Of a stretch of 64,000 nt of DNA, positions 36,370 to 59,071 are shown piece after piece. Positions within the stretch are counted from its first letter, which is position 1. Each line of letters starts with the position of its first letter. Location of the stretch: contig WIAF01000013.1 in the NCBI GenBank assembly GCA_014055465.1, forward strand, positions 1-64,000. Reading direction: 5' to 3'. The notes beneath the pieces were generated by a model that ran no database searches, was not told the DNA's origin, and saw nothing but the letters and a program-made list of their open reading frames with translations. This stretch comes from Nitrospira sp. CR1.1 (GTDB taxonomy: Bacteria > Nitrospirota > Nitrospiria > Nitrospirales > Nitrospiraceae). The position numbers and the translations under genes are program-made.

Positions 36370-36714
36370 ATGGCGTCACACCTTGTAATCAGACCCCTCC
36401 AGCTGGCCCTGCTCGGAGTCTTCTTTCTGCAAGGTTGTGCTACTCCGGCGGGAAACTATCAGGAGCGGCACACAATCAAAAACCTGACGGTTGTGTTTCT
36501 GGATGAGGAAAGTCTTCACCGTGAATGGCAAGCGATGAGCGGACGCCAGCCGGTTATATTCGGTTCACAGTCAGGTACCGGGATCCCCACGCTGAAAACC
36601 TTACGAGGATTTTATGATTGGCCCTCCAATACCCTCTACTGTCCGAAGTGGAACTTTGAAGTATGTGGGCACGAACTGCACCATGCGGTTCTTGGACAGT
36701 TTCATTCGGATTAG
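36370..36714 (+). CDS. Small lipoprotein with HELHH metal-binding motif
   Basis: The 114-residue protein has a lipoprotein signal peptide ending LQGC (Cys23). The mature part has two short beta segments (LTVVFLDEESL and PVIFGSQSG) and ends with CGHELHHAVLGQFH, where H101-E102-x-x-H105 is a zincin-type HExxH motif and H112 could be the third ligand. The motif lies nine residues from the C-terminus, which is unusually short for a metalloprotease and could mean a minimal or metal-storage domain. It is a single gene on the plus strand beside the T6SS promoter region. Its family is not recognised. Confidence 0.6.
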   Translation: MASHLVIRPLQLALLGVFFLQGCATPAGNYQERHTIKNLTVVFLDEESLHREWQAMSGRQPVIFGSQSGTGIPTLKTLRGFYDWPSNTLYCPKWNFEVCGHELHHAVLGQFHSD

Positions 36715-36771
36715 CCTGCTTGGCAGCCCAGACATCAGCAATCCGCACCAAACACCCCGCGTATCTGACCT

Positions 36772-37227
36772 CTACTCTTTCAGATAGGGTCTTAGATCGG
36801 ATGCCACGTCTCGCAAGACCTGGCTATCTCGTTCCCATGCCTCCATAAATAGCGCAAAGCGCGTTTTGTCATACAGCCCCGGCATCCAGGCACTCATAAA
36901 TAAATGCCCCTCCGTCGTCCATACGGCTCGCGACACTTGTGTCCGTAGATTGACGCCGTTCGCCACTGCATGGCGCTTGGGCACATCTTCCTCAGCGCTC
37001 TTTCCTGGAAAGGCTGTCTGAACCAGAATCCCGCCCTTTTGATATGACACGATGATGTGTAGCTTGGAGAAATGTCGAGCCCGCACACCCTGTTCAACCA
37101 CGTCACTCTGATATCCAAGGAAGTCGAGATGCGAAATAATTGGATCGTAGGCAGAATCAGCCCACGCCAGCGAACTTGCCCACATCGTCATGGCCGCAAG
37201 AAGGACGATGCAGAGACCAATTCGCAT
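36772..37227 (-). CDS. Secreted protein, possibly YbjN-like
   Basis: I start at the ATG at 37227 (151 residues) because it opens with a clear signal peptide (IGLCIVLLAAMTMWASSLAWA, cut before DSAYD) and has GGAGG just upstream; a longer frame from 37275 would bury it. The mature part alternates strands and helices, with LHIIVSYQKGGILVQTAF and VWTTEGHLFMSAWMPG, and ends with a helical FMEAWERDSQVLRDVASDLRPYL. The shape recalls YbjN-like/type III chaperone-like folds, but this is tentative. It lies 66 bases after the large FecR gene on the same strand and is likely co-transcribed with it. Confidence 0.6.
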   Translation of the reverse strand: MRIGLCIVLLAAMTMWASSLAWADSAYDPIISHLDFLGYQSDVVEQGVRARHFSKLHIIVSYQKGGILVQTAFPGKSAEEDVPKRHAVANGVNLRTQVSRAVWTTEGHLFMSAWMPGLYDKTRFALFMEAWERDSQVLRDVASDLRPYLKE

Positions 37228-37293
37228 GGTCCTCCAGAGTGCAGTCCCTACATCCTTGCATTCATCCTGCTTCATACGCTAACAATCTCCGAA

Positions 37294-40200
37294 TTATTTT
37301 TTCGCAACCGGTACACTGATGCGTAATTCGGAGCCGGGCTCGATCCGCAAGAGCGCCGCATGTTCATCCAATACCACGGTTGAAGTCGTCCCCGCAGGTG
37401 CGCGAAATGGCGTGAACCCCTGCGGAAGTTGTATATTAGTTTTGCTCCCTGCCACTTGGATGGCTTTGCCATTGGACGATTGGAACGGCGCATTAAGATG
37501 GTCGGTCAGGAGCCCGCATTCCCCGCTCGCGCACAAGGTATTTGTAAGCCTTAGCGTGTTGGCGGTTTGATCGAAAATCCCGAACGCATCACTGTTCAAT
37601 CGAAAGACAGAGTTTCCAGTAAGGCTCAAGAGCGTACCGCCGATGTTTAAGGTGCCGGCATTCGCCAAAGAGAACAGGTAGCCGTTCACGGTCGCACCTG
37701 TCCTCGCCAGATTTAGGAAATTACCCGCGACATCCATGGTCTTCCCGTTCAGCCGGACCAAAGCGTCACCCGGGACGAGATTGGCCCGCAGCAATTCTTT
37801 GCTCGGCCCCGTCCCTGCCAGATCGATCAGATGCCCGGTGGCAGTGAATTGACTATTCGTCACCGTCAGAATGGGAGAGCTGGCGTCCAGCAAGGCACGA
37901 TCCAGCACAAATCGTCCAATTCCCGATTCCGTAGCCCTGACGACGGCAGCAGACGAAACTTTAACCGTGGAGTCATTGACCTCCAGCAGCGGGGGGATTT
38001 CTCCCTTCGCCCGGTTGGGAATCAATTGTCCGCTTTCAAGTCGACCTGTGCCTGTGGAAAAATCCTCGATTTGAGTGGCACCAACTAGCGACGAGGTCGA
38101 GGAGTTCGGCCCTCTTAACTGACTGTCCAGCACACTTACCAGTGATATCCTAAGTTCTTCATTATTCACAATGTCTGGTCTGATAGAGCTGCCGCTTAGA
38201 ACAGCGACGATCCTATCTTCGACTTCCACAAAAGCTGGTCTTTCTCCAACAGCAACGATAGCTGCCACCGAACCTTGCAATTCAGGCCTAGCGCTCTGAT
38301 GCTCAAAATAACTCAATGTTCCACTAGGTGCCGGAAGAGGTTCAGGGTCACCGAAATGATAAGGATACGCGCCTCTCGTGATGGCATTCGTGACCGTAAC
38401 GTCAGTGGCATCAGCTAGTACTATACCTCCTGATAGCTTAACGGGAGACAAGGGATCGGAATCACTTCTCGCCGTGAGTCTCGCGTCCACGAAGCTGAAG
38501 GGTGAAGTCCCAATCCCCTGGGATCGAGGCTCAAAAAATCCATTAGCCGTGGAAAACGAGTCACAATTGGCACACACTTTCCTGTCCGAACGGGAGCTGA
38601 AATCTCCCAAAATAGCGCCCTCAGCTGGGCCGGGGAAATTCGTGCTGAGAGAATCATTGACAACTGGCCTATTGTCAGTCGGAGAGCGCGCAATGATGGT
38701 CGGTAGTTTTCCAAGTGAGCCATCACTGAGCAGGGGATCAATGAATCCCCTATAGTCTTGGCTAATATTGACCCCAATATTTCCGTTTACCTCAATAGGC
38801 TTAGCGGTGATGCTAGAGACTGAGAGCCGCTGTCCTATTGATATTGATTGATTTTTCCCATCTAAACTAAACCGCAATTCTAAACCATCAAACTCGAGAA
38901 ACGCGGTCGCACTGCCAATTCGTTGGGGTTCTCTTCCAAAATCAAGTAAAGAAGCAAAAATATTTGTTCGGAGTATACTTTTTTGATTCGTACCAATATT
39001 GGTTAATTCAAACACTCCTTGAGGTGATTCAGTGCTCGTACCAGGAGTTAAGGACAGAATTCGAATTTCGTAAGGTTGAAAAGTCAGCAACTTGGTATCG
39101 ACGATCCGGATTGGTTCGGCGTCGAGCTGAATCTCTGTCAGCCCGGACGGGACAAACGTACTCACCTTCGGCAATTGAAACTGCAATCTATCTCTAATCC
39201 CTCGAGATACCAAACTACTTAAAGGAGCTAGGCCTCCATGTGGCGCAAATTCCCGTGCACCACTGTCTATAAAGACCAACTCTGTTCCCTTAAATTGACT
39301 GCGAGTTCCGTCCGCTCCTTTCGTGATTGAAACTAGCCCGAATCCACCTGGAACCGTGATTTCTGATGTAAGCGCCCTTGCATTTAGACTTGTATTAGAA
39401 TCATTGCCGTCATCTCCAATCCCTGTCCCTGCCCGATTGATCGCCGAGAGTAGGGCGGCGGTGTAGGGGTTCCCAGTGCCGAACAAACTCGCCGTGGGAT
39501 TGTTGGAATTCGATGAATTACTTGTTTGGGTCGGGTTGGTTCCAAACAGGGTCGAGATAATCGTGCCGCTTTGACTTTCTTTGCCTTCGACTGTCGTATC
39601 AGGGTCCCCATAGAGAGCCTGCTGCAGGGCACTAACCTGTTGCATTTGCCGCTCCGAGACCAGATCGAGTCCCGCCTGCGGGGTCGCGGCATGGTGCGTT
39701 GCCGCAAGCAACATCGGTCCAGTCCCGGCTAAGGCGCCCTCGATCCCACTCGGCGTTCCCAGTGTCCCGCCGGTCACCTGTACCGACTGGCCGGACTCGA
39801 CAACGAATGGCGTTGCGCCTACGGCCCGAGTTCCAATCGTCGCCGGCCCTTCATAAACTTCAAAACGTTCGTTAAGGATCGCCTCCGTCTGCACTGGGTA
39901 GACCGGAGTATACGAGACCAGCAGTGCCCGTCCCTCTGGCTCCTGCTTCCGTTCGGTTTGCTGAGGCTCCGTGCCGACCGTGGCTTTGAGAAGACCGCCC
40001 CGGGTCGCGAGCTGCGCACCGGGCGTTTCCACGATCACCGTCTGCCCATCCCGTAAGGCACTGGCTGCGGCTGACACCAAGACGCTCCCTTTCGTGAGAT
40101 GCACGACGGTATGGCCCTCTCGCTCTTCTAACATGACATCGGACTCGCTCAACAGGGTCACAACAGCGTGATTGTTGATCAAAACCTCAGCAGAACTGTC

Positions 40201-40434
40201 ACGGGCCGTTCGCACCTGTTCGCCAAATAGAATCTGTTCACTGAACCGCACTGGTCTGGCCGTCTCCCCTGCCGATACCGTGAGATCGCTTCCGCGAATA
40301 CCTGACACGACTGCCTGGTTGTGGCGCCGCACCTCCACCCCCCGTTGCTCCATGGCCCAGATAAATCCAGGCCCCGCGAATTGCAGTGCTGTCAGGGTCA
40401 CCACAAGTAAACGGAAGAAGGGAGATGCCGGCAT
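37294..40434 (-). CDS. Exported FecR-domain protein with long beta-solenoid C-terminus
   Basis: I start at the ATG at 40434 (1046 residues), which has GAGGAGG six bases upstream and begins with a signal peptide (FFRLLVVTLTALQFAGPGFIWA). A FecR domain lies at about 45-150 (SEQILFGEQVRTARDSSAEV, then VVTLLSESDVMLEE and TPGAQLATRGG). The rest is Ser/Thr/Gly/Asn-rich and low in Cys. Near the C-terminus are short repeats of the GxLLxLxxTGT type (LNLARTGATVNG, FSLANAGTLNIGG, LSLTGNSVF), typical of a beta-solenoid. There is no FecA or sigma factor nearby, so it is not a classical iron regulator. It is divergent from the TPR-barrel gene and may be a surface or periplasmic scaffold. Confidence 0.75.
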   Translation of the reverse strand: MPASPFFRLLVVTLTALQFAGPGFIWAMEQRGVEVRRHNQAVVSGIRGSDLTVSAGETARPVRFSEQILFGEQVRTARDSSAEVLINNHAVVTLLSESDVMLEEREGHTVVHLTKGSVLVSAAASALRDGQTVIVETPGAQLATRGGLLKATVGTEPQQTERKQEPEGRALLVSYTPVYPVQTEAILNERFEVYEGPATIGTRAVGATPFVVESGQSVQVTGGTLGTPSGIEGALAGTGPMLLAATHHAATPQAGLDLVSERQMQQVSALQQALYGDPDTTVEGKESQSGTIISTLFGTNPTQTSNSSNSNNPTASLFGTGNPYTAALLSAINRAGTGIGDDGNDSNTSLNARALTSEITVPGGFGLVSITKGADGTRSQFKGTELVFIDSGAREFAPHGGLAPLSSLVSRGIRDRLQFQLPKVSTFVPSGLTEIQLDAEPIRIVDTKLLTFQPYEIRILSLTPGTSTESPQGVFELTNIGTNQKSILRTNIFASLLDFGREPQRIGSATAFLEFDGLELRFSLDGKNQSISIGQRLSVSSITAKPIEVNGNIGVNISQDYRGFIDPLLSDGSLGKLPTIIARSPTDNRPVVNDSLSTNFPGPAEGAILGDFSSRSDRKVCANCDSFSTANGFFEPRSQGIGTSPFSFVDARLTARSDSDPLSPVKLSGGIVLADATDVTVTNAITRGAYPYHFGDPEPLPAPSGTLSYFEHQSARPELQGSVAAIVAVGERPAFVEVEDRIVAVLSGSSIRPDIVNNEELRISLVSVLDSQLRGPNSSTSSLVGATQIEDFSTGTGRLESGQLIPNRAKGEIPPLLEVNDSTVKVSSAAVVRATESGIGRFVLDRALLDASSPILTVTNSQFTATGHLIDLAGTGPSKELLRANLVPGDALVRLNGKTMDVAGNFLNLARTGATVNGYLFSLANAGTLNIGGTLLSLTGNSVFRLNSDAFGIFDQTANTLRLTNTLCASGECGLLTDHLNAPFQSSNGKAIQVAGSKTNIQLPQGFTPFRAPAGTTSTVVLDEHAALLRIEPGSELRISVPVAKK

Positions 40435-40594
40435 GATCGTCCTCCTCGCGTGAGAAATTGACTCGCATTCACAGCACGAATCTCTGCTTGACAGGCCTAG
40501 GTGACTTCTATACAAGGGCAACGGCTGCCAGTGAAATCACCACGGTATAGTACGTAGCAACGTTCCCTACAGATGGCGGAAGGAGGCTACAGTA

Positions 40595-42262
40595 ATGGCT
40601 TTACAAGGTCAAGTGGCTCACCAGAAGAAAAGAATAAATGCGTGTATTTCGGGACTGCTCCTGTTCATTACGGTTATGGGAGTACACGTATTGTTTCTCC
40701 ATCCTGCTCTTGCGCAGCCCTCAGAAGGGAACGTCTTAGTGGCACAGGCAGTCCTCGCGTACGAGGCGAAGCGATATGATGAAGCGCTGAATCTCTTGAC
40801 CCGTGCCCGCACCCATGATCCGCACAATGCGCGTGGACTCTACTATCTGGGATTGACCCAATTGGCTCTTCAGCACCCGGATGACGCAATCGAGCCGCTT
40901 GAGGCAGCCAGGCAACTGCAGCCAACCGATGTGAATGTCCAGTATCAACTCGGCGTGGCTTATCTCGCAGCGAATCGCTATGACGAAGCCGCCCCTCTCT
41001 TTGAGCAGGTCTATCAGCAGGAACCGAATATGGATAATCTTAGTTATTATGTCGGATTAACCCGCTATAGAAGGAAAGAGTACAAGCCGGCGGTTGAAGC
41101 CTTTGACCAGGGCACTGTCACCGATCCCAATCTCCAACGCCTGGCAACCTTCTATCGAGGACTCGCCTTAGGCGTATCGGGAATGACACAGGAAGCTACG
41201 GCCGCCTTCCAGGATCTACAACGTAGCCGGGCAGTTGATCCGTTGACGCAGACAGCGATCAGGCTCAGTGAAAGTCTGGCCGCTCGGCAGGGGGTTCAAC
41301 GAGAAGAAAAGCGCCTCCGCGCCAGCATCAGCGTGGGCGGCTACTATGATGACAACGTGGCCATCAATCCGGACCGTTGCGACCGCTGTAACCCGGCGGT
41401 GAGATCATTGGTTGACCAGTTCAGGGAGCGCCGAACCAATTCCCCGGGCGCCATCGCGACGGTGAATGCAGAATATTCTTTCCTCCGTCACGAAGGCTTT
41501 GAGAGTTCTGTGAGCTATTCGTTTCTGCAGACCTCCAACTATGCCGGGAATTTGGATCGGTTCAACATTCAGAGTCATCAACCCGGACTCCATAGTTACT
41601 ATCGAACGACGCTGGCTGACATGCCCTTCCAATTGGGATTGGATTATACCTACGACTATGTGTTTCTCGATTTTAACGGATTTCTATCCCGGCACAGCCC
41701 GACCCTATCCGCGACGATTGTGGAACCGAACACAACTGTGCCTTTGTTAGGCAGTGTCGGTCATATGACCACCACGCTGGGCCGATACCAGAAGAAGAAC
41801 TTCTTTGGCGAATTCGATCCACGATTTCCTTCCGAGCAACGCGACGGCTATAACACGATGGTCGGCCTGTTTCATTCGTTCCGTTTCGCAAGTGATCGGA
41901 CCATCCTGCGCGTCGGATACGAATATGATATTGAACGCACAGAAGGGACCGCCTTCTCCTACAATGGCCATCGATTGGAGGCCGGACTCCAAGTGCGCCT
42001 TCCCTGGGATATGCATGCAGGTTATACTTTTAGCCTGCATTTCCGGGACTATCAAAATCCTCAGACGCTGTTTCTGGACAAAGACGCCGCTCTATCCAAA
42101 CGCAAGGACACGCAATACGACCATTTGATCCAGCTGACCAAAGCATTGAGCGAACACTGGCTGATCACGGCCCAATTCTCCCATACCACCGCCGTGTCGA
42201 ATGTTGCCATTTATGATTACTCAAAGAATGTGGCGACCGGCTTAGTAACCTGGGTTTATTAA
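40595..42262 (+). CDS. Exported TPR protein with C-terminal outer-membrane beta-barrel
   Basis: The 555-residue protein has a signal peptide (about 1-42, cut after ALAQ), then a TPR array at 45-215 (repeats such as AYEAKRYDEALNLLTRARTHDPHNARGLYYLGLTQLAL). The second half (about 245-555) is a beta-barrel: alternating aromatic strands, GGYYDDNVAINP at the first strand, and a final aromatic residue (TWVY). This layout resembles SLAM-like and other TPR-barrel proteins that act at the outer membrane. A CDRC pair lies in the first loop. It is followed after 63 bases by the CHAT gene and is probably co-transcribed. Confidence 0.78.
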   Translation: MALQGQVAHQKKRINACISGLLLFITVMGVHVLFLHPALAQPSEGNVLVAQAVLAYEAKRYDEALNLLTRARTHDPHNARGLYYLGLTQLALQHPDDAIEPLEAARQLQPTDVNVQYQLGVAYLAANRYDEAAPLFEQVYQQEPNMDNLSYYVGLTRYRRKEYKPAVEAFDQGTVTDPNLQRLATFYRGLALGVSGMTQEATAAFQDLQRSRAVDPLTQTAIRLSESLAARQGVQREEKRLRASISVGGYYDDNVAINPDRCDRCNPAVRSLVDQFRERRTNSPGAIATVNAEYSFLRHEGFESSVSYSFLQTSNYAGNLDRFNIQSHQPGLHSYYRTTLADMPFQLGLDYTYDYVFLDFNGFLSRHSPTLSATIVEPNTTVPLLGSVGHMTTTLGRYQKKNFFGEFDPRFPSEQRDGYNTMVGLFHSFRFASDRTILRVGYEYDIERTEGTAFSYNGHRLEAGLQVRLPWDMHAGYTFSLHFRDYQNPQTLFLDKDAALSKRKDTQYDHLIQLTKALSEHWLITAQFSHTTAVSNVAIYDYSKNVATGLVTWVY

Positions 42263-42325: not shown

Positions 42326-45300
42326 ATGTGGTTCAAGCTCCGATCGGTTCACGCTTCCGCTATCGCCACGGTCCTCGTGGGCTCAGCGGCTTTTTCGATT
42401 TATCCAGCATGGGGCGCCGCCCACGGATCTCCTGTATCCAATTCTCCGCCTGCCGAAGCAGAGTCGCTCGCGCGTGCCGATGAGCTGAACCGGCAAGCGC
42501 TCACGCTCCACCACTCCGGTAGATTTGCGGACGCGCTGCCTCTTGCGAAAGAGGCCCTAACGCTTCGAGAGGCGGCTCTCGTCCCCAAGGATCTGCTCAT
42601 TGCGGAGAGTCTAAATACCCTAGGAATTGTCCTCCAAGAATCTGACTATAAAGCTGCTCGTCCTTTACTTGATCGCGCCCTCAAAATTCGCCAAGAAGCG
42701 TTCCCTTCGGATCCTCTCGCCATCGCAGAAAGCCTGACCAACCTTTCCCGTACGCTATACGCTGCAGGCCAATTCGCCCAAGCCCGGCCGATGCTTGACC
42801 AAGCGGTCCACATCAGAGAAACGTCCCTCGGGCCCACTGCACCACAAGTCGCGGTGAGCCTCGTTCATCTTTCGATTGTTGTAAGTCAACATGGTGACCT
42901 CCAGCATTCCCGCTCACTGATGGAAAGGGCCCTTTCCATTCTGAATCCTCTGGAACATGACCATTCGCTTGAACTTGCCATGGGGCTCAACTATTACGGC
43001 AACATTTTGCGTCGCCAGGGCGAATTCGCGGAGGCTCGTGTTCCCCTCGAACGTTCGCTCTCGATTCGGGAGCGAATTCTCGGTCCCTCACATCCCCATG
43101 TCGCGCGAACGTTATCCCGAATGGGCCAGCTCGAGGCAGTGACGGGGAATTATCAAGCAGCACTGCCCCTGTTCCAACGCGCTTTGCGAATCAATGAAGA
43201 ATCTCTTGGCGCCACTCACGCTGAAATCGCCGGCGATTTGAACGAAATCGGTTCAGTGCATCGAGCACTGGGAAACTTTGCAGAGGCGAAGCGGTCCTTT
43301 GAGCGAGCACTTCGCATCCAGAAAGCCACTGTAGGCCCGCAGCATCCGTTCGTCGCCGTGACATTGAATGCCCTGGGACAGCTGGCAGCTCAAGTGAATA
43401 AGCCGGACGAAGCCAAGTCCTTGTTTCAAGAAGCGCTCGCGATCCAAGACCATGCACTGGGACATGGGCATATCTTCTCCACCGAAACCTTAACGGCCCT
43501 TGGCTATCTGGATGTTCAGCGTGGTGCCCTGAAAGAAGCAACGGATTACTTTGAACGTGCCAGTCGAATCAGGGAGTCGCTGCTAGGTTCGACTCATCCT
43601 GATGTGGCAGCCAGCTTATTCGATCTAGCTCGGGGTCTTCATGCGCAAGGCAAACTCAAGGCAGCACGTGAGCACTATGAACGCGCGCGCCGTAGCACCC
43701 TCATGCATATTTCTGCAAACCAGAATTTAGAGGAGGCCTCCCAGACTCGGGTATGGGCACAACAGTTAAAAGGCTTGTATGACTATGAATTACTCTTAGC
43801 CACCGTGGCGAACAAGCCTTCACTGGATACAACTCCGCCAACTGCTATGGCCGACAGCTTCCTCGTAGCCGAGCAAGCCCGCGGCTGGATGATTCAATCC
43901 GCCATAGCGAGAGCCATGGCAAGACAGTCTCTTGAAGGAGACACGCATCAGCTGGTGCTCAAGCTTGATAATTTGAGACGTCAGCGGCAGGCAGTGTGGG
44001 GCAAGCTGACCGAGCTATACTCACAATCCGTTGAACAGCGGAACGAAACCGACCTAGCCAATGTGCAGAGGGAACTTGAGACTGTTCAGGCGACAATCTT
44101 GTCAGATGAGAAAGATCTAGAACATGAATCTCCTCGTTACGCCGAATTTGCCTTGCCAAAGCCCGCAACAATATCTGGCACACAATCGCTGCTTACCCCA
44201 AATGAAGCGCTCATCAGCTGGCTAACACTTTCCGACCGTATCTGTATCTGGCTGGTACGATCAGGGCAGCCCCCGCTCTACCGGGAGAATTTCATCCCCC
44301 GGTCTAAATTGGCGGATTTGGTCAATCAAGTCAGAACAAGTCTGACACCTGCATTCACGTCGTCTCCCGATGTGGCAGGCCTTCCACCATTTGCCATTGA
44401 TGCCTCACGCGAACTCTATCGGCTACTTATTGAGCCCGTCTCCTCCCAGCTTGATAAAATTGAGCATCTCGTCCTCATTCCTGATTCAGTGCTTATGCCC
44501 CTCCCACTCGCTGCATTGCTACATGACCAAACAAACCGATGGCCCAACGGACTAGCAGACTTTGCTCGGACAGGGGGAATCGTGCCTGTCAAAGATCTGG
44601 TCCGCTATAAAGATCTTCCGTGGCTCGGATCTGCCTACACCCTCACCGTCATTCCTTCCGCCTCAGCACTAAAACTACTGAGAGAAAGCACCAGTCTTAA
44701 GAATGGTCGTCGGGAACAATTTATCGGATTCGGCGATCCAGTACTCCAAGGAACCGGAATTTCTCGAGGTGGAGCTTTGCCGAAGCATCGAGGCGCGCGA
44801 GTGCTCCGCAGCGAGCTCGAGTTGCTGAATCGACTACCCGGTACCCGCGAAGAATTGCTTGCCGTTGCTGCCGCCATGAACGTGCCACCGGAAGGGCATG
44901 TTTTCCTCTCTGAGCAAGCTACGGAAACCCAAGTCACTCAACTCAATCGATCCGGCCGCCTCGGCTCTGCTAATGTGCTGTCGTTTGCTACTCATGGGCT
45001 TCTCTCTGGCGAACTTCTGGGCTTGAAACAGCCGGCATTGGTGTTGACCCCTCCGCCCTTCCCCACAGACGAAGATGATGGTCTGCTTTCGCTGGACGAC
45101 ATTCTTCATTTGAACCTTGCACGGACGAATTGGGTCATTCTCTCAGCCTGTAATACTGCAGGGGGTGACGGTAGCGGAGATAACCTGACAGGTTTGGCAC
45201 GAGCGTTTTTCTTTGCCGGGGCGAAGGCCCTGTTGGTTTCTCAATGGAGCGTCGACGATCGAGCCACGCAGTTTCTCATGACAGAGACGTTTAAATACTA

Positions 45301-46124: not shown

Positions 46125-46206
46125 AATGCTGTTCTCCAAGAGCGGTTCGAATGTTGGTCAAATCCATGATCAGCGCTGGCTCTTGCTGATTGCCTCCATT
46201 CTGATT

Positions 46207-49407: not shown

Positions 49408-50352
49408 CTACTTATCCAATGGAACTCCTCTCCGTTGCTTGCTGTAGGTATCGACTGTCTTGCTCGTTGTGAGTAGCGGCACGGAACGATCCACCCCGGT
49501 TAACTTCGCGCCTCGACGCCCCTTCCTGATGTCGGACTCCAGGCGTTGGAGGTAGTCTCGGCTTTCGTCGCACCCACGTCCGGCACTATCACCGCCCTCC
49601 TCGATCGGCACCGCACTCAACATCGCCTTAATGGTTTCAGCGCCAAACGGGTGCGTGATGAGGATATGTTCCGGATCTGCATCACCCCCGAACGAATAGG
49701 TCCGCCCACCATGAATCAGCGCCTGGCCGCGATACACATTCGGCGCCAAATGCACCACACAACCATCAGCCATGAAATAGTCAAGTTTGAGATAGGCATC
49801 GCGATCAGACTGCACGTACACGATCAGACGATCCCCCTCGATGTAATGGCCATCGGCCTTATCGACCCACACCCTCAACCCAAACCCTTGCGATTGCGGC
49901 ATCAACGGAGTTTGCGCCTCTTGCGCAACCTGTTTGGCGTTTGCTCGTTGCTTGATCAAATCCTCGAATGAAACCGGGCTCAGTTTGGCGCTCACCGTAA
50001 TACAAATTTCCTGCCCCTTCTTTTCTTCTTTTTCCACCCTGATCTGTTCCAACATTCCGGCGCTCACCGTTTGAATCAGGTCGTCTTCAAGCTTCAACTT
50101 CCTCACGGTGGAAGTGGATTCCACCAACACACGATGACTGCGAACGGCTTGCTCCTGCGCAATGGTCATTGCGGCCCTTTTGGCCTGAGCCGGTGTTTCG
50201 TTATCGCCGTAGGAATAACAGCCCTCGCCACGAACAGTCTCCAGCTCGTGACTCGCTGCCTTTGTGCCCGCAAGGACGATTGGGGAATCGAAAATCGACA
50301 AGACTACGCAGAGCGCAAGCGGTGCAGAGGACCATGGATGCAGCTTATTCAT
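49408..50352 (-). CDS. Exported DUF4384 protein
   Basis: The 314-residue protein has a signal peptide (APLALCVVLSIFDSPIVLAG). An N-terminal LPP20/PrsW-like segment (GEGCYSYGDNETPAQAKRAAMTIAQEQAVRSHRVLVES at about 42-79) is followed by a DUF4384 domain near 155-265: LRVWVDKADGHYIEGDRLIVYVQSDRDAYLKLDYFMADGCVVHLAPN, and HILITHPFGAETIKAMLS. DUF4384 domains are commonly found with caspase-type peptidases. Here two CHAT genes flank it within 5 kb. It is divergent from the second CHAT gene. Confidence 0.78.
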   Translation of the reverse strand: MNKLHPWSSAPLALCVVLSIFDSPIVLAGTKAASHELETVRGEGCYSYGDNETPAQAKRAAMTIAQEQAVRSHRVLVESTSTVRKLKLEDDLIQTVSAGMLEQIRVEKEEKKGQEICITVSAKLSPVSFEDLIKQRANAKQVAQEAQTPLMPQSQGFGLRVWVDKADGHYIEGDRLIVYVQSDRDAYLKLDYFMADGCVVHLAPNVYRGQALIHGGRTYSFGGDADPEHILITHPFGAETIKAMLSAVPIEEGGDSAGRGCDESRDYLQRLESDIRKGRRGAKLTGVDRSVPLLTTSKTVDTYSKQRRGVPLDK

Positions 50353-50642
50353 AGGTCACCCGTTACCCTGTCAATCAGCAATGAAGGTTATGGTTCTCAC
50401 GCCGCCAAGGGAGTTCAGAAAATATAGACAATTGTGCCCCCCTTGTCGAGGAATGCCTCACGAGAAATACACGTATAGCGGCCGGAGTTTCCTCTTATTC
50501 ATCGGCAATGTCCATTGCAGCAGTCCTGGCTTCCCGATACAATCATATCGGGCATCCAAGTGTTGCTCTTCCTATGGCATCCTGCAATAGGGAGCACCTA
50601 CGCGCGATGCCGTCGATCAGCCGGGAAAGAAGGAGGTGCGTC

Positions 50643-53183
50643 ATGGCCACGGTGCTTGCCCCTCCAACCATTCACAACAAACCCCTGCCGACGCCCTCTC
50701 ACGGCCCGGCATCTTACGTGATCCCCGACATGAAAACTCTGACGCTTCTTGCGGTCTTCTTTGTCTGCATCGTCGTTGCCGGTCAGGACTGGGCACCAGA
50801 CGCGCTCGCACAAGAGACCAGCTCTCCTGAGACGCTGATGGAACAAGGGCAATCCGCCTATCAGCAAGGGGCCTTCACCCAAGCGATGCAATATTGGACC
50901 GAGGCCGGCCTTCGTTATGAACGGGAGGGCAAAACACGAGAGCAAATCAAGGCGCAAGTGAATCTCTCGCAAGCGCTCTATCAAACCGGGCACTATAAGG
51001 AAGCGGGATCGATCTTGGTTGATTCGGGAAAACAAGTGGATCGAATTGGAGATCCCCTCCTTAAAGCCATTGTGCAGGGGCGGCTGGGCTCTGTCCTCTT
51101 TGCGCTAGGTGATAATAAAGAGGCGTTACGTGCAATCGAAGAGGGTCTCGCCTCGGCCAGAGCACTCGACAATTCGGCCCTTGCCGCGACCATGCTGAAC
51201 GATCAGGGCAACATTCTCACGGCCGACGGACGATACTCTTCTGCGGTGGCTGCCTACACCGAATCGTCTATCCTGGCCAAAGCCTCTCGTCAACCATCGC
51301 TGACCACCATCGCCCTGATCAATGCCGGCCGAGCCACAATCCAAGAGGGGTCGCTCGACACAGCCAAGGCGCGCTTAGACCTCGCCGCGCAGGAAATCGC
51401 CTCGATGTCGGATTCGTTCGACAAGGCCAATGCCTGGCTCAGCCTTGGGGACGCCTATGAAGAAATCGTCCAGCCCCGCATCGGCGACGTCTCTTCGAGA
51501 AATGTCGTGCAACGGACGCTTCTTGCGGCCAAGAGTTCACGGGGTGTTGAACTACAGCCGGGGACACCTCCGACGCAGGGGCCGGGTGCGACCACACCTC
51601 CACCTGATACACAACCCCCTCCCAAAAAGCCTAGCCCTCTACCCACACTTCGCCAGGCGGCGGACGCCTACTGGAATGCGATCCAGGTCGCGACCAGGAT
51701 CGGGGATGCACGAAACGAATCCTACGGGTGGGGCTACCTGGGTCACTTGTATGAAACGCAGCATCGCACGGATGAAGCGCTGGACCTGACCCGACGAGCC
51801 CTGCTCGCCGCTCAACAGGTCAGCTCTCCGGAGTCCCAATACCGGTGGCACTGGCAGACTGCACGTCTGCTGCGGTCCAAAGGCCAGATCAACGAGGCGA
51901 TGGCTGCCTATCAGCGAGCGATTGAAACCTTGCAACCCATCAGGTCGGAGTTTACGGTGGGAGGCCACAACCGCCGGTTTTCCTTTCGCGAGACGACCGG
52001 CAATCTGTTCTTTGAGCTGTCAGATCTGTTACTGCAACGCGCAGCCTCAACACCAGACCTAGCGGCCCGCCAGCGTCTCCTCGGACAGGCGCAGGACACG
52101 GTTGAACTCTACAAGGCGGCGGAGCTGCAAGACTATTTCAGAGATGAGTGTGTCGCGACCGCCCGATCGACGAGCACGGCGGTCGCCCAGGAATCCAAGT
52201 CCACGGCTATCGTCTATCCCATTATCCTGGCAGACCGCATGGAGCTGCTCGTGAGCATGCCGGCCGGACTGAAACAGTTCATTGTGCCGGTGACCGGCGA
52301 GCAGCTGACGGAAGAAATACGCGCCTTCAGACTCGGCCTCGAAGATCGTTCCAACAACGCCTATCGTCCCCATGCCCAGAAGCTCTATCAGTGGTTGATT
52401 CGCCCCATGGAGGCAGACCTGACCAATGCGCACATCACCACCCTGGTTTTTGTACCGGACGGACCGCTACGGACGATTCCGATGGGGCCCTTGCATGACG
52501 GCACGAAGTTTTTGATTGAGCGCTATGCGGTGGCGACCACGCCGGGATTGACACTCACGGATCCGCGACCGCTCAACCGGAAGCAGATCCGCTTGTTCTC
52601 CATGGGGCTGACCGAGGCGGTGCAGGGCTTTTCGGCCTTGCCCTATGTCGGCAATGAATTAAAGGCGGTTCAGGCGATTTACGGTGGGAAACAGGTGCTG
52701 AATGAAGAGTTTCGCGCCGGGAAGGTCGAACGTGACCTTAATGAACAGCCATACAACATGATCCACATTGCCTCCCACGGCAAGGTTGAAAGTGATGTCA
52801 CCAAGAGTTTTGTACTCACGTTTGACGACCGCATCACGATGGATCGCCTGAGCCATCTCGTGGGATTGTTCGAGATGCGCACGGTGCCTCTCGAATTGTT
52901 GACACTGAGCGCCTGCGAAACAGCCGCCGGGGACGATCGCGCGGCCTTAGGTTTGGCAGGAATGGCGATCAAGGCCGGCGCGAAAAGCGCCCTTGCGACC
53001 CTCTGGTTTATCGATGACGAAGCCACGGCCGAACTCATCACCGAGTTCTACAAGAATCTCCAGGACCCAGCCACATCCAAAGCGATGGCGTTGCAACAGG
53101 CTCAGCTCACGCTGCTGAAAAACCCCGAGCGAGCCCATCCCGGCTTGTGGGCGCCTTTCTTGTTGATTAACAATTGGTTGTAA
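50643..53183 (+). CDS. Second exported TPR-CHAT protease-like protein
   Basis: I start at the ATG at 50643 (846 residues), which has GGAGGTG four bases upstream; a longer frame from 50508 has no comparable site. Residues 30-60 form a signal peptide (LTLLAVFFVCIVVAGQ, likely cut after ALAQ) preceded by a short hydrophilic stretch. TPRs run from about 65 to 250 and again from 345 to 420, separated by a Pro-rich spacer (TPPPDTQPPPKKPSPLP). The C-terminal CHAT domain (about 510-846) has His712 in IASHGK and Cys758 in LSACETAAGD. It should act outside the cytoplasm. It lies downstream of a divergent DUF4384 gene. Confidence 0.87.
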   Translation: MATVLAPPTIHNKPLPTPSHGPASYVIPDMKTLTLLAVFFVCIVVAGQDWAPDALAQETSSPETLMEQGQSAYQQGAFTQAMQYWTEAGLRYEREGKTREQIKAQVNLSQALYQTGHYKEAGSILVDSGKQVDRIGDPLLKAIVQGRLGSVLFALGDNKEALRAIEEGLASARALDNSALAATMLNDQGNILTADGRYSSAVAAYTESSILAKASRQPSLTTIALINAGRATIQEGSLDTAKARLDLAAQEIASMSDSFDKANAWLSLGDAYEEIVQPRIGDVSSRNVVQRTLLAAKSSRGVELQPGTPPTQGPGATTPPPDTQPPPKKPSPLPTLRQAADAYWNAIQVATRIGDARNESYGWGYLGHLYETQHRTDEALDLTRRALLAAQQVSSPESQYRWHWQTARLLRSKGQINEAMAAYQRAIETLQPIRSEFTVGGHNRRFSFRETTGNLFFELSDLLLQRAASTPDLAARQRLLGQAQDTVELYKAAELQDYFRDECVATARSTSTAVAQESKSTAIVYPIILADRMELLVSMPAGLKQFIVPVTGEQLTEEIRAFRLGLEDRSNNAYRPHAQKLYQWLIRPMEADLTNAHITTLVFVPDGPLRTIPMGPLHDGTKFLIERYAVATTPGLTLTDPRPLNRKQIRLFSMGLTEAVQGFSALPYVGNELKAVQAIYGGKQVLNEEFRAGKVERDLNEQPYNMIHIASHGKVESDVTKSFVLTFDDRITMDRLSHLVGLFEMRTVPLELLTLSACETAAGDDRAALGLAGMAIKAGAKSALATLWFIDDEATAELITEFYKNLQDPATSKAMALQQAQLTLLKNPERAHPGLWAPFLLINNWL

Positions 53184-53321: not shown

Positions 53322-54221
53322 ATGCTGCCTGCGTGGCACGTGATCTCTCCTGCCGTCGAGCATGCCGCTTCACGGATTCTAATGAGCAATTCCTTTTCTA
53401 TTCCCATGCCTGCCTTCCGCATCTCTATCTTGATTGCTCTGTTCGTTCTGTCGAACTCCATCAGTGAGGCCGGTTTTTATACCGGAACAGAGAGCCTCAC
53501 GGAAGTGTCGTCAACAACCGTCTCCTCCACCTGGCCTTCCCTTACGGATCTTTCAGCAAAAGAACGAGTCAAACCAAATCTCACCGGTGAAGAGTTCGGA
53601 TACTTTTCACGGGTCGAAACAGGCTTTCTCGTGGCGACGGTAGAGGACAGTCCCATAGCCGGCACGAGAGCGGCCTCTGTCAGGCTTGCCCGCACGCAGG
53701 CCGTCCTTCATTCAGGAACCGGAACCACCGTACTCGGCGACCTCTACCTTGCCGACGATCATCCCATCGTGGCGGCAGAAGCGGCACAACTCCTGGCCTC
53801 GACAGCCCTGCTCCTTGATCGAGATCCAGGAACGCATCTGACGCTGGAAGCCTATTGTGATGAACGTGGGACAGAGGCCTATAGTTTCGTCATCGGCCAG
53901 GCCTGGGTATCAGATGTGAGCCGTCGATTGCAGGAGATGCGAGTAGGAGAGACGCAGGTCACGACAGTCAGTTACGGTCTACAACAACCAGCTTGCCAAC
54001 AAAAGTCGACGACCTGTTGGGAAGACAATCTGCGTATGAAATGGTCCATCCGCCTGCTCTCTCCCGTCGAGTCCCAACAGGGCTGTCTAGTCCGCCTCAA
54101 ACTTGCGACCAATGCTCCGCTCGGTGAGAATGCAATGGTCGCGGCCGGTCACCCCTACCTGCGTCGCATCCAACAGGGAGAACCCTATTCCGCCAAGGCT
54201 CCCGCCCCTAGCCCCCGATAA
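53322..54221 (+). CDS. Exported OmpA/Pal-like protein
   Basis: The 299-residue product has a signal peptide at about residues 29-50 (FRISILIALFVLSNSISEAG); the ATG at 53322 follows GGAG, but starts at 53382 or 53406 are also possible. The region 125-235 resembles the OmpA-C/Pal peptidoglycan-binding domain: LTLEAYCDERGTEAYSFVIGQAWVSDVSRRL near 167-197 and VTTVSYGLQQPACQQ, then CWEDNLRMKW in place of the usual NRR motif. The change at the NRR-like position suggests altered or lost peptidoglycan binding. The C-terminal 60 residues are unique and end in Pro-rich sequence. Confidence 0.65.
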   Translation: MLPAWHVISPAVEHAASRILMSNSFSIPMPAFRISILIALFVLSNSISEAGFYTGTESLTEVSSTTVSSTWPSLTDLSAKERVKPNLTGEEFGYFSRVETGFLVATVEDSPIAGTRAASVRLARTQAVLHSGTGTTVLGDLYLADDHPIVAAEAAQLLASTALLLDRDPGTHLTLEAYCDERGTEAYSFVIGQAWVSDVSRRLQEMRVGETQVTTVSYGLQQPACQQKSTTCWEDNLRMKWSIRLLSPVESQQGCLVRLKLATNAPLGENAMVAAGHPYLRRIQQGEPYSAKAPAPSPR

Positions 54222-54250
54222 GCACACAGCAAGCTTTTCAGAAACAGCCC

Positions 54251-54440
54251 GCAGGATGCGCAAAAGGGCCATCCAGCAAGGCCACAGCGAGCGAAGAGGC
54301 GAATCGTACTCGTGCCGTACGGTGAGACTCTGAGGTTCACGACGCGCGGAATAACGCGCGTCACGTTTGTGAACGCCGCCGAGCCGGTGAGGCGGCAGTG
54401 TCTTGCGAGAGCGCCGCTGGCGAATTTTTCCGCATCCTGC
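54251..54440. repeat. Dispersed inverted-terminal repeat element, copy 2
   Basis: This 190-base element starts GCAGGATGCGCAAAAGGGCC and ends TTTTTCCGCATCCTGC, giving near inverted termini. It is the inverted-orientation relative of the copy at 12130-12321, but the two internal blocks (one with CGTACTCGTGCCGTACGG, one with ACGCC...GGCAGTGTCTT) are in the opposite order. It also contains a perfect GACGCGCG/CGCGCGTC hairpin. Its last base overlaps the tpsB stop codon. Confidence 0.72.
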
Positions 54441-56293
54441 TAGAGGATGTTGAGCACAAACTGGATATGCACCCCCTCATCCTGCAGACCGTTATGAGGG
54501 TTCGAGACATTATTCGTCACGAGACGCCGTCCCCAATACACATTGAGGTTTGCCACCGTGCTGATATTGAACCGGAGTCCGGCCCCCACGCTCGCCAACG
54601 TTTGCGGATCGCCGCTCACGCCCTTGGCCGACCAGGAATGGCCAACATCCGCGAAGGGACAGAACTGCACGTAAGGGAATCCTTCGCTTGAACTCCACAG
54701 AGGAAAGCGGGTCTCAAACTGATACACGAAGGCGTTGTCCCGAAGCAGGGTGTTTTCGCGATAGCCCCGCACGCTGTAGCGTCCCCCTACCGCCATTTGT
54801 TCGAGAGGAAACAGATGGTCATTGGCGAGCTGCATATTGAGAAAGTTTAATATTTCGATACGCGATTCAAAACGCTTCAACCATTCCGCCTGCCCGAGCC
54901 AGGAAAAAAACTGACCTTCCGCCGCTCCCGACGCTCCGTTGACCGTAGCCCCCAGGACATCGACCCCCGTGGAAAAGCGGGAGCGCACCGAAAATACGGA
55001 CTCCGTGGTCCGATGGGTCCATTCCTGGATGAAGCGGAGCGCGGCGACATTCCCAAAGCCGTTCTTCATGCCAGTGACGAAGTCGAACGGCGTGCCAAGG
55101 AGACTATTGGCATTCTGCTCGTATTCGCCCACGAGCGCGATCGTAACCTCGTCGTTCAGGGTGCGATAGACCGGCTGGCGCAGCGACAGGGTGAAGATCT
55201 GTGTCTCGCTCTTGATATCCAGCGGCCGAAACGGATCTTCCACCACCTTGAACTTGAAATACCGGTAGCCCGCAAACAAAGTGGTGTCGTATCGGTTGAG
55301 GGGAATCGCATAGGAGGCATCCACCGCCGGGAACACGCCTATCTTAGCGGGGGAAGCCTGACCCGAAGCCCCGAAACTCATACTCAACACATCGCCACGG
55401 CCCGTGAGGTTGCGATGGGCCATCGTCCCGCGCAGCTGATTTTCGCCGACCGTGGGGTTGATGTAGTTGTTATACTCAACAAAAGCCCTGACGGGATTCG
55501 CCTCCTGCACCGCGACATCCAATATAGCTTCACCGGGAACTGTGCCCGGTTTGAGTTCGGCATTCAAGCGCTCCAGCCGGTCGTCCTGCAAAAGCAGCTG
55601 CAGCCGGTCCCGGAGCGGGTTCATGTTAAAGGGGGGCCCTGCGCTCAGCTCAATACGGTCGCGGAGGTAGGAGGGCCGAAACCATTTCGTGCCTTGAATT
55701 CTGACATCACTGAGCCTTCCTTCAATCACCTGCAGCGTGATCGTGCCATCGACCACCGCTTGATCAGGCAGCACCGCGCCTGAATTGGGATAGCCCTTGT
55801 CGATATAGGCCAGCGTAATGCGCCTTCGCAATTCCTCCAAATCTTCGGTCGTCACCTCCCGGTTTTCGTAGAGAGCGGTGAGTTGGGTCAACTCCTCCTG
55901 TGACAGTACGGTGCTGCCGACCACCTGGATCTGTCTGACAAAAACCCGCAATAGCGGGCCCTTCTGGCGGAGATCTCTCGGCGAAGGTTGGACCGGAGGA
56001 AGAATCTCCGTGGGAGGCTGCTCCGGACGCAAGGGCTGCTTCTGTTCCACCGGAGGTGGAAGGCCGGATCGGCCGGAAGGATCGATCACAGGGGGCAGGC
56101 CGACCTGCGCATAGTCAAGCTCAGGCATCAACAGACTGCAGGCAACCAGCATCAAGAGTTGGAAGAAGACGTTCCGGGAACAACCGCTCCACCCTCTCTG
56201 CATGCTGTTCGGCTGCGAGGAAGGCATAGGCTGATGCTCGGTGGCGTAATGGATGGTCCCCTCCTCCTGGCTCTTGACGATCAGGTGCCCCAC
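54440..56293 (-). CDS. tpsB: TpsB two-partner secretion transporter (ShlB/FhaC family)
   Basis: The product is up to 617 residues from a GTG at 56293; ATG starts at 56227 or 56203 are possible and the ribosome binding site is unclear. After a hydrophobic segment (FFQLLMLVACSLLM) comes a Pro-rich linker, then the POTRA region (VFVRQIQVVGSTVLSQEELTQL near 114-135, ITLAYIDKGYPNSGAVLPDQ, VIEGRLSDVRIQG). The barrel follows from about 255, with the VRGY loop-6 motif (GGRYSVRGYREN) near 530. TpsB exports its TpsA partner across the outer membrane. The partner gene ends nine bases upstream. The last residue is Leu rather than the usual Phe, and the stop codon abuts a repeat element. Confidence 0.88.
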   Translation of the reverse strand: MGHLIVKSQEEGTIHYATEHQPMPSSQPNSMQRGWSGCSRNVFFQLLMLVACSLLMPELDYAQVGLPPVIDPSGRSGLPPPVEQKQPLRPEQPPTEILPPVQPSPRDLRQKGPLLRVFVRQIQVVGSTVLSQEELTQLTALYENREVTTEDLEELRRRITLAYIDKGYPNSGAVLPDQAVVDGTITLQVIEGRLSDVRIQGTKWFRPSYLRDRIELSAGPPFNMNPLRDRLQLLLQDDRLERLNAELKPGTVPGEAILDVAVQEANPVRAFVEYNNYINPTVGENQLRGTMAHRNLTGRGDVLSMSFGASGQASPAKIGVFPAVDASYAIPLNRYDTTLFAGYRYFKFKVVEDPFRPLDIKSETQIFTLSLRQPVYRTLNDEVTIALVGEYEQNANSLLGTPFDFVTGMKNGFGNVAALRFIQEWTHRTTESVFSVRSRFSTGVDVLGATVNGASGAAEGQFFSWLGQAEWLKRFESRIEILNFLNMQLANDHLFPLEQMAVGGRYSVRGYRENTLLRDNAFVYQFETRFPLWSSSEGFPYVQFCPFADVGHSWSAKGVSGDPQTLASVGAGLRFNISTVANLNVYWGRRLVTNNVSNPHNGLQDEGVHIQFVLNIL

Positions 56294-56302
56294 CTTGCCG
56301 CC

Positions 56303-59071
56303 TTACGATCGACAGCCGACAAAGACTGTCAGGCTGCTGCGAGACGACTGCTCGAAATCAGGCAATCCGAGACGGATCGCTGACAGCTTTGATGGGGACT
56401 GTAGGCTACGGCTCAACGGAACCTCATCCAACTCCAGCAGCAACGGGCTCGGAATCAGATCCCCTGGCTGCGGCGGCACGCCGTCCCGCGCCCCTTGCAC
56501 GAAGCTGCTGAATTGCCCGCCCTTCTCCGCAGCACAACGCTGGCCATAGAGATTGGTTGCGACCGCAAAGGCTTGCGGCAACGGCGCAATGGCACCGGCA
56601 AGTTGCTGGAGAGGTGCTTGAATGTTGACGGTACCATTGAGTGCCTGATTTCCAGAGTCGGCATTGATCACGCTTGCAGGGTCAGCCAACAGGACCCCAG
56701 CAACGATGGAAATCGCTCCGCCCTTCCCCTGAGTTGCCTGGGCAAGAATTTGGCTATTCTGAAGAACCACAAATTGTGGGTCAATCGTGATGTTACCACC
56801 ACCACCCGTTCCAGCAGTTACCGAGGTGGTGATCTGGCTACTACGAAGGCGCACCAGATTCGGCGCAGTGAGGGTAATATTGCCGCCAGACGCTTCAGCC
56901 GCCGAGGTCGTCACCATACTATTCGCGATAGAGATACTACCACCTGAATTAAGAGTGATATCGCCGGCCTTTCCATCCCCAGTTGAGGAGGTGTTTATCG
57001 TGGAATGATCAGCCAGAACTATATTAGTTCCGGCGATTACAATGTTTCCTCCACTTGCTGCTGGATAAAGTTGACTGACACCTTGAGGGGAAGGAGCTAT
57101 CCTATCGAGACCGGTTGTGGTTGCTTCCAGACTCGAGTTATTTGCGAATAATAAATTGTTGCCACGTATAGATATTCTTCCACCACCGCCTATACCTGCA
57201 TGACTCACTGCCGCGTGTCCCGCATCGAAGACGACAGAATCGCCCTTTACACTGATGGAACCTGCAAATCCAAAACTATTATCAGAAGGGCCACTGCTCG
57301 ATATCTTACTGTCATTCAGGACTTGAATGGTTTTGGCACCGACACCGTCTTCGACACCTGAAATAGTGATTGTGCCGGCAGCTCCTCCGCCATTCAACGG
57401 ATCTGAGCCGGAATTCTTTGTGCTGATGACAGAATCATCAAAGACAACAATATCCCTAGCACGAATATCGATGTCACCCGCACTGCCGAGTGATCCACCG
57501 TCCGCAGATATCTTTGTCGCCCTAAAGGATAAAGTGGGGGCGGCAATGAGGATATTGTCTGGTGAAAAATGTGCCGAATGAATACTAGCGTGTTCAACAG
57601 CAGCCACGATGTCTCCTGCTGTCAGGGAAATAGACTCGCCAGCTTTCAATACGATGCCTTTGTGATCGGAAACATTTGCAGTGAATCCGAAGTCATTTTG
57701 AATCAGGTTCTGGCCACCGCTCCGGATGGTTCTTGCCGCCTCCAGCCTTATAGACCCTTGATTCGTCAGTACCTGGCTATTCGACATATCTATGTCGATT
57801 GCTTGAATACTGATCTGTCCGCCCTGTCTACCTCCCCCAACATCAAGAAACCATCCCTCGGTATCAAGCACGGTTTGGTTCCGCAGTAAGACATGATTTG
57901 AAAAGGAGTCGGTTCCCCCCAAACCTTGGACACGTATGTGCCCAGCACGATTCATATTCGGCCCTGGTACGTTGTACCCATCAGTAACAATCTGGGCGTG
58001 ATCCAGCGCCACTTCGTTTGAACTAATGGTAACATCCCCCTGATTGTTCGTATAAATCGTTCTTCCTGAACTTCCCCCAGCACTTCCTTTCAACGAGACC
58101 GAGGCAGCAACAAGGTCGACTATTCCGCCTTTGCAGCAAGTCATAACAGTAAAAGTAGAGTCAAACTGACTAGAGGCGGTCGTAATTGCTTCAAGGCTTG
58201 CATTTTCCGACACTAACTGCCCTCCACGAACAAAAACCTGGCCAGCATCGCCTTTGCTAGAACTCGTTCTCAAGATCGCCCCTTCTGTGAGTTGAATCGT
58301 ACCTTGTTTGGACACGTTGGCGAGACCAAGAGATGGCGTCTCACCTAGCTGATCGGGAATTACCTCGCCGGCTCCTGCCACACTCGCCAGGTCTAGCTGT
58401 CCACCCGGTGCGAAAACAGTTCGTCCAATTATCGAAATATCCCCGCCTATCAGCGAAATCGCCTTTCCTTCACCAACGGCAAGCGGCGATCCGGCTTGCA
58501 CGGTAATGGGACCTGCCAAGCGCTCACCTAAAAATCCAAACGCCGTCACTGGTGCGCTCGTCAGTTGGCTTGTTTTGCCCAAATCCGCATAGAAGCGATC
58601 ATTGCCGCTGCCAAGCCGCAAATAGTCGGCCGTGCTGAAATGCACCGAACCGCCGACATTCAGCGAGGCCGAGGGGCCAAAGACGATGCCGGCCGGATTA
58701 ATCAGCCACAAGGCCGCCGTTCCAAACCCCGCCGTCTGAATGTTCCCATAGATGTTCGAGGTCTGGCCCCCCGTCACCCGACTCAGAATATTCGTCGTCG
58801 CAAGTCCGGAGTCATTTTGAAACAGAGCGCGGTCATGCGTGCCGACACTGAAGTCGCCAAAGCTATGGAAAAGGTTCGTGCCATTGCCCGGTCTCGTGCC
58901 GCCGGTAATGTTGTACGTCGGCACTGGCGCATTGGGGCTAAGGGCCACATTGGTGTTCAGCCCGGAAGACGTAATTGACGTGGTTTGCCCCTCGCTGCCC
59001 GTCACGGAGAACAAACTCATCATCACCGTCAGAACAAAAACTGCTCGAAATATTCCTGGGCTCCCGTCCAT
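56303..59071 (-). CDS. tpsA: TpsA filamentous-haemagglutinin-like exoprotein
   Basis: The 922-residue protein has a signal peptide (1-29) and a TPS domain at about 30-190, with SNIYGNI at 105-111 and the NPNGI-type motif NPAGI at 125-129 followed by VFGPSASLNVGGSVHFSTADYL. The remainder is a beta-helix of short Gly/Ser/Thr/Asn-rich repeats. The C-terminus has QRCAAEKGGQFSSFVQGARDG followed by VPPQPGDL, which resembles the SSF...GRGGLPP tail of cyanobacterial haemagglutinin-like proteins. It is exported by the adjacent TpsB and is probably surface-bound or released. GGGGAG precedes the start. Confidence 0.87.
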   Translation of the reverse strand: MDGSPGIFRAVFVLTVMMSLFSVTGSEGQTTSITSSGLNTNVALSPNAPVPTYNITGGTRPGNGTNLFHSFGDFSVGTHDRALFQNDSGLATTNILSRVTGGQTSNIYGNIQTAGFGTAALWLINPAGIVFGPSASLNVGGSVHFSTADYLRLGSGNDRFYADLGKTSQLTSAPVTAFGFLGERLAGPITVQAGSPLAVGEGKAISLIGGDISIIGRTVFAPGGQLDLASVAGAGEVIPDQLGETPSLGLANVSKQGTIQLTEGAILRTSSSKGDAGQVFVRGGQLVSENASLEAITTASSQFDSTFTVMTCCKGGIVDLVAASVSLKGSAGGSSGRTIYTNNQGDVTISSNEVALDHAQIVTDGYNVPGPNMNRAGHIRVQGLGGTDSFSNHVLLRNQTVLDTEGWFLDVGGGRQGGQISIQAIDIDMSNSQVLTNQGSIRLEAARTIRSGGQNLIQNDFGFTANVSDHKGIVLKAGESISLTAGDIVAAVEHASIHSAHFSPDNILIAAPTLSFRATKISADGGSLGSAGDIDIRARDIVVFDDSVISTKNSGSDPLNGGGAAGTITISGVEDGVGAKTIQVLNDSKISSSGPSDNSFGFAGSISVKGDSVVFDAGHAAVSHAGIGGGGRISIRGNNLLFANNSSLEATTTGLDRIAPSPQGVSQLYPAASGGNIVIAGTNIVLADHSTINTSSTGDGKAGDITLNSGGSISIANSMVTTSAAEASGGNITLTAPNLVRLRSSQITTSVTAGTGGGGNITIDPQFVVLQNSQILAQATQGKGGAISIVAGVLLADPASVINADSGNQALNGTVNIQAPLQQLAGAIAPLPQAFAVATNLYGQRCAAEKGGQFSSFVQGARDGVPPQPGDLIPSPLLLELDEVPLSRSLQSPSKLSAIRLGLPDFEQSSRSSLTVFVGCRS

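Follow-up and report, generated by a model that had tools for sequence, protein, structure and literature searches.

HMW1 and HxuA carry disulfide-closed tails that serve as periplasmic anchors, and the tail of CdrA is cut by the protease LapG (PMC5422565). According to a review of two-partner secretion (TPS), the genes for TPS maturation proteases apparently lie outside TPS operons, and stalled TpsA is degraded by DegP in systems other than the one described below (PMC5422565). The proteases that process or release TPS adhesins are largely an open question, which becomes directly testable with CHAT proteins that travel with TpsB and TpsA across phyla. Here we describe such a locus in a 64,000-nucleotide stretch of DNA (the window) from Nitrospira sp. 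CR1.1, which is part of a 95-kb contig (WIAF01000013.1) from a genome that shares its genus with Ca. Nitrospira defluvii. Nitrospira are nitrite-oxidising bacteria, central to nitrification and wastewater biofilms, and the window holds a concrete surface-adhesion and type VI secretion system (T6SS) locus in this genus.

Two modules make up the cluster of interest. Module M2 contains an exported protein with DUF4384 and FlgT_N-like parts (49408–50352, minus strand; Pfam, 67.7 bits), the exported TPR-CHAT cysteine protease candidate CHAT2 (50643–53183, plus strand; Pfam CHAT, 186 bits), an OmpA-like exported protein (53322–54221, plus strand), the transporter TpsB (54440–56293, minus strand), and the exoprotein TpsA (56303–59071, minus strand). 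TpsB has a POTRA_2 domain and a ShlB barrel, matches the CdiB and FhaC structures, and adjoins TpsA, whose TPS domain (PF05860; 132.8 bits) lies near the N terminus at residues 52 to 278. TpsA is predicted to be exported by its own TpsB. Module M1 consists of FecR1, a TPR protein with a C-terminal SlipAM-like barrel, and a second exported TPR-CHAT protein with an intact dyad, CHAT1 (42326–45451, plus strand; Pfam CHAT, 177 bits). A Pfam scan of the window proteins recovered, each in its place, every gene that a preliminary description of this DNA had listed. The OmpA-like protein is present and kept in synteny among relatives, with a Pfam score slightly below the cut-off (26.7 versus 27.2 bits).

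The partnership of CHAT and TPS genes is real and much wider than the cyanobacterial linkage named in that description, extending over a four-phylum clade and a separate Burkholderiaceae lineage. Within the genus Nitrospira, 51 of 60 TpsB genes lie no more than 8 kb from a CHAT gene, versus 0.85 expected (27 of 29 genomes), and genomes of the order outside this genus also tend to carry CHAT and TpsB together (p = 9e-5). Hand counts in a phylum-wide sample of cyanobacteria gave CHAT in all 26 genomes with strong TPS matches and in 6 of 17 genomes of at least 3 Mb that lack TPS. Where a TpsA locus has no CHAT nearby, 16 of 17 such genomes have one elsewhere. No CHAT was found within about 12 kb, where the sequence allows, of seven control TPS loci that are proteobacterial or from Selenomonas. 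Some cyanobacteria carry TPS and CHAT domains, N- and C-terminal respectively, in a single polypeptide, with the dyad motifs in all 10 examined, which is a Rosetta-stone link. Three cyanobacteria have TpsA-TpsB fusions, and a CHAT gene comes after each of them.

In a tree built from 81 CHAT domains, CHAT2 belongs to a clade (60 rows; support 95/90) with members from Nitrospirota, Cyanobacteria, Myxococcota, and Proteobacteria; all but one of its rows, on a short contig, show TPS linkage or a TPS fusion. A large share of the clade was collected via TPS, so this linkage is partly by design. The TPS-linked rows of the tree require 5 label changes, versus 24 in shuffles. In a Burkholderiales sample collected via CHAT, the in-clade CHATs are TPS-linked in seven of seven cases and those outside the clade are unlinked, save for a Caballeronia-type lineage. 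The latter, placed among unlinked CHATs, adjoins TpsB-TpsA in 16 of 16 Burkholderiaceae genomes and on three plasmids. The TPS association therefore arose at least twice. CHAT1 falls outside the TPS-linked clade, on a long branch of unsure placement.

Both CHAT1 and CHAT2 follow the expected protease architecture, wherein a CHAT domain with a His/Cys dyad lies after the TPR region. The pairs reported as intact in the preliminary description are present in both proteins, and His684 and Cys730 of CHAT2 are invariant across 30 aligned members of its family. The start of CHAT2 is probably the ATG at 50643 rather than the open reading frame start at 50508, because AAGGAGG, a strong Shine-Dalgarno sequence, precedes this codon, and both this signal and the frame from there on are conserved in three orthologues; upstream of it the frame is not conserved in them. 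A confident AlphaFold2 model of CHAT2 (pLDDT 83) has as its best matches among solved folds the TPR-CHAT protease Csx29 (Z about 31) and separase, and the TPR-CHAT-like region of the transmembrane anti-sigma factor DdvA also matches (Z 21.5). Searching solved structures by sequence gave TPR matches only, and the CHAT match came from the fold comparison. In a Pfam scan, CHAT1 and CHAT2 yielded only CHAT and TPR families and no LapG-family domain. Another CHAT gene of the same genome (L001, G000:C3:196554-197351) has Arg in place of the catalytic His (HVASRTV, where the orthologues seen read HVASHTV), a possible recent inactivation.

The N termini of CHAT1 and CHAT2 are signal-peptide-like, as the preliminary description had noted, and so are those of most CHATs found, TPS-linked or not, by a lenient, home-made test that gives clear false positives on cytoplasmic proteins. 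Export was consequently dropped as a distinguishing mark of TPS-linked CHATs. That description had suggested that an exported CHAT protease acting on surface adhesins or their export machinery would be new, but signal-peptide-like CHATs are common and DdvA is a transmembrane protein; thus, export alone is not the novelty.

The C terminus of TpsA provides a candidate site of action. Two Cys residues are invariant in 43 of 43 TpsA C termini and enclose a C-terminal module, with a conserved stretch following the first (candidate motif C..SSF...GRD.LP..PG). By analogy with HMW1 and HxuA, this pair is a putative disulfide-closed periplasmic anchor. Also seen, at L004 and L031 (G023:C1 1843312-1854300; G028:C510 3269-3514), were tandem TpsA genes and orphan TpsA C-terminal modules, as if C termini were exchanged as cassettes.

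From these features we infer that CHAT2 is an active protease with TpsA as its substrate. We propose, at a confidence just short of even, that M2 is a type Vb two-partner secretion system with a dedicated third partner, CHAT2, which cuts TpsA to control its retention or release. TpsA would leave the cell via TpsB, and its tail, closed by the conserved Cys pair, would remain as an anchor. Engagement of its TPR part would prompt CHAT2, periplasmic or sited at the outer membrane, to cut TpsA, most probably within or close to the tail, and this cut would decide between adhesin retention and release. The logic would be that of LapG acting on CdrA, with an unrelated protease. Release by a tail cut is the simplest synthesis of these features with the HMW1- and HxuA-type anchors, the LapG-CdrA precedent, and the apparent absence of maturation protease genes from TPS operons (PMC5422565). 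M1, with CHAT1, its SlipAM-like barrel protein, and FecR1, may, less firmly, represent a parallel pair of a CHAT and an outer-membrane exporter.

Several observations weigh against this proposal. The CHAT domain is broad, many proteins with it lack a TPS neighbor, and the TPS sampling is largely biased by query. The window has CHAT2 and TpsB in convergent orientation, with CHAT2 outside the TpsB operon. The C-terminal motif of TpsA does not strictly follow the presence of a linked CHAT nearby (p = 0.11, not significant), so the module was dropped as a predictor of a local CHAT, and CHAT-linked TpsAs of the Caballeronia type lack the motif. Its Arg is variable, being kept in 37 of 43 C termini and replaced by S, A, G, or others in several CHAT-linked TpsAs, which weakens the idea of an Arg-specific cut at GR[DG]G; Nitrospirales TpsAs have an SKSD stretch in place of this Arg, and the cut is retained only as one somewhere in the tail. 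The AlphaFold2 model of the tail is of low confidence (pLDDT 67), with the end of a beta-helix followed by an unstructured tail, and neither proves nor excludes a hook.

A complete T6SS (9356–35986, minus strand; Pfam) lies directly left of the cluster and is syntenic in five relatives; the preliminary description did not mention it. Its genes encode DUF6484, VgrG, ClpV, TssG, TssF, TssE, an M15 peptidase, Hcp, TssC, TssB, TssA, ImpE, TagF, TssM, TssL, TssK, TssJ, Fha, and a protein of 436 amino acids (34676–35986). Together with the effector and immunity end (5749–9344, minus strand; Pfam), formed by DUF2169, g7135, a PAAR-like toxin (6234–7121), and an Imm26 immunity protein (5749–6255), the core components TssA–C, TssE–M, Hcp, VgrG, and PAAR are all present. 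PP2C and Fha are usual partners in the T6SS threonine phosphorylation pathway, and genes for both were found in the window. The 436-amino-acid protein adjoins Fha, is kept at the border between T6SS and M1 in relatives, and has no match in Pfam, NCBIfam, or PADLOC. A fused TssB-TssC-like sheath protein (523 amino acids, a VipA part then a VipB part) is encoded beside the T6SS island in N. defluvii (L024:7107-8678), at G014:C156 62233-63690, and at G005:C42 18574-20017, the last with an internal stop; its gene neighbors encode a protein with Sel1 and caspase C14 parts and an autotransporter beta-domain protein.

All window proteins were compared by tblastn with the relatives of the window genome (labelled G001–G028). 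The neighborhood, whose loss had been named beforehand as counting against the preliminary description, is kept in related Nitrospira well above chance: the T6SS and cluster were found again in G014, G023 (N. defluvii), and G024, partly in G005, and as separate pieces in G028, which is fragmented. Within the genus, the window type of T6SS sheath protein is confined to the genomes that share the island. The conserved set of M2 comprises PP2C, the cyclase-FHA protein, DUF4384, CHAT2, the OmpA-like protein, TpsB, and TpsA, most of them kept at 71 to 96%, with TpsA lower. M1 is absent from G005 while M2 stays; G024 has an inverted M1 of about 47% identity, and the CHAT1 of G028 is the divergent version too. 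These patterns argue for two modules that can separate and that are joined to a T6SS, and not for the single proteolytic system of the preliminary description, whose linkage, dyads, and conservation otherwise hold. The neighborhood is maintained rather than accidental, and in these six genomes the island may go back to a single assembly event. A second DUF4384-TpsB-TpsA-CHAT cluster lies in N. defluvii on the opposite side of the T6SS region and, in the window genome, on a different contig, and the same DUF4384 protein type adjoins TpsB-TpsA-CHAT at other loci.

T6SS attachment recurs in a second phylum. Caballeronia grimmiae and Caballeronia sp. M1242 share the gene order kinase-tagF-tssM-tssL-tssK-tssJ, CHAT-TpsB-TpsA, and tssA, continuing in M1242 with tssB-tssC-PP2C-tagH-tssH, and Paraburkholderia PGU19 has a similar arrangement. 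Several T6SS genes lie within 10 kb of four of the 16 loci sampled across Burkholderiaceae genomes, and one lies within that distance of a fifth. The T6SS-attached CHATs of Nitrospira and Burkholderiaceae are about 28% identical and fall in separate clades, which argues for convergence beyond hitch-hiking alone. The tie is optional, since most TPS-CHAT loci lack a nearby T6SS. We infer a functional tie, wherein M2 beside an antibacterial T6SS could supply the cell contact that this machine needs. The chance-built alternative, in which one ancestral island was passed down whole and its TPS-CHAT and T6SS parts have no functional relation, concerns this link only, is compatible with cleavage of TpsA by CHAT2, and is close to an even prospect. 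It gains from the small number of closely syntenic Nitrospira genomes (six) and from the many TPS-CHAT loci away from any T6SS, and it is strained by the independent CHAT-TPS lineage inside or beside T6SS clusters in Caballeronia, in Paraburkholderia, and in four genomes of the Burkholderiaceae sample, as well as by Nitrospira M1, which stays at the same site though divergent and inverted.

Two other roles for CHAT bear on the proposal itself. A quality-control or stress protease, whose TPR part senses a jammed TpsA/TpsB pair or misfolded TpsA in the periplasm and which responds by degradation or signaling while leaving the mature TpsA form unaltered, would fit the CHAT-TPS linkage equally well, as it would the TPR sensor architecture, the TPR-CHAT-like fold in DdvA, and the precedent of DegP (PMC5422565). 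The TPS-CHAT fusions, however, place CHAT on the exoprotein, and this placement fits processing or action at the surface better than clearance from the periplasm; we consider this role unlikely, if worth keeping in view. The same fusions, with their intact dyads, would suit a surface or injected weapon, wherein TPS delivers or exposes the protease against neighbors or predators, directly so in the cyanobacterial fusions, and the T6SS loci serve contact-dependent killing; T6SS adjacency in Nitrospira and Burkholderiaceae and the island's own PAAR toxin and Imm26 point the same way. In these two groups, however, the CHAT protein is encoded separately, has an N terminus of its own that resembles a signal peptide, and lacks a TPS domain, which makes export by TpsB unlikely; moreover, no immunity gene was recognized next to CHAT, and CHAT is strongly conserved, as polymorphic toxins are not. 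A weapon is thus quite improbable. Returning to cleavage of TpsA by CHAT2, its generalization, that CHATs are widespread in-locus maturation or release proteases of TPS, acquired at least twice independently and built into T6SS loci in two phyla as an adhesion-plus-killing apparatus, is a possibility that we advance tentatively. An anti-phage defense role was rejected, since a PADLOC scan gave no meaningful match (BovA, 18 bits only).

M1 also includes a small lipoprotein-like gene (36370–36714, plus strand) and the exported protein g36772 (up to 37275, minus strand), both kept with M1 in G014, G023, and G024. FecR1 (37294–40521, minus strand) is a 1075-residue exported protein whose N-terminal FecR domain barely exceeds the Pfam cut-off (25.1 versus 24 bits), and a sequence search of solved structures found no relative. 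It is tandemly duplicated in N. defluvii (L022, L005; G023:C1 1869931-1876313). The barrel protein that follows (40595–42262, plus strand) matches Pfam TPR and SlipAM (26.2 bits, cut-off 22). Between CHAT1 and the DUF4384 gene lie FecR2 (45459–46139, minus strand; Pfam, 53.8 bits), a YncE-like beta-propeller (46207–47220, minus strand; Pfam), a PP2C phosphatase (47506–48294, plus strand; Pfam), and a protein with a class III cyclase domain (Pfam Guanylate_cyc) and an FHA-like C terminus read from the sequence (48374–49351, plus strand), all four kept in synteny among relatives. The last three, at 46.2–49.4 kb, had been missed previously. By eye, the transition-state Arg of the cyclase is apparently Lys, such that its activity may be low. 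As previously remarked, the FecR genes have no sigma factor beside them, and no TonB receptor either, of the kind that marks FecR-type surface signaling, among the annotated genes at 34.7–62 kb. An IS21-type IstA/IstB insertion sequence (60033–62137, plus strand; Pfam) borders the cluster.

Overall, the CHAT-TPS partnership and its attachment to T6SS appear undescribed, although their parts are of known kinds. Our literature searches, with subscription papers outside their coverage, found no paper uniting CHAT with two-partner secretion or hemagglutinin, CHAT with T6SS in Nitrospira, or T6SS with filamentous hemagglutinin in Paraburkholderia. M2 resembles FhaB/FhaC and HMW1A/B in its TPS domain, its POTRA/ShlB transporter, and the adjacency of their genes, and its TpsA has a C-terminal Cys pair that may correspond to that of HMW1- and HxuA-type anchors. 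It differs in having a conserved CHAT neighbor, whereas the TPS maturation proteases described so far, SphB1 and LapG, are encoded elsewhere (PMC5422565). In contrast to the LapG/LapD systems of CdrA and LapA, CHAT2 has a caspase/separase fold with a TPR sensor in place of LapD, and no cyclic di-GMP receptor was seen among the listed genes. Csx29 of Craspase, the closest solved fold, likewise has TPR followed by CHAT, but it is cytoplasmic, partners an RNA-guided complex, lacks TPS, and is only about 12% identical. DdvA shares the TPR-CHAT-like region and differs by its transmembrane and anti-sigma parts; we know of no link between it and TPS. If the proposal is true, exported CHATs gain a role beyond CRISPR and cell death. 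Finally, the window resembles T6SS clusters with kinase, PP2C, and Fha in its complete core, PP2C, and Fha, and is set apart from them by the attached TPS-CHAT modules.

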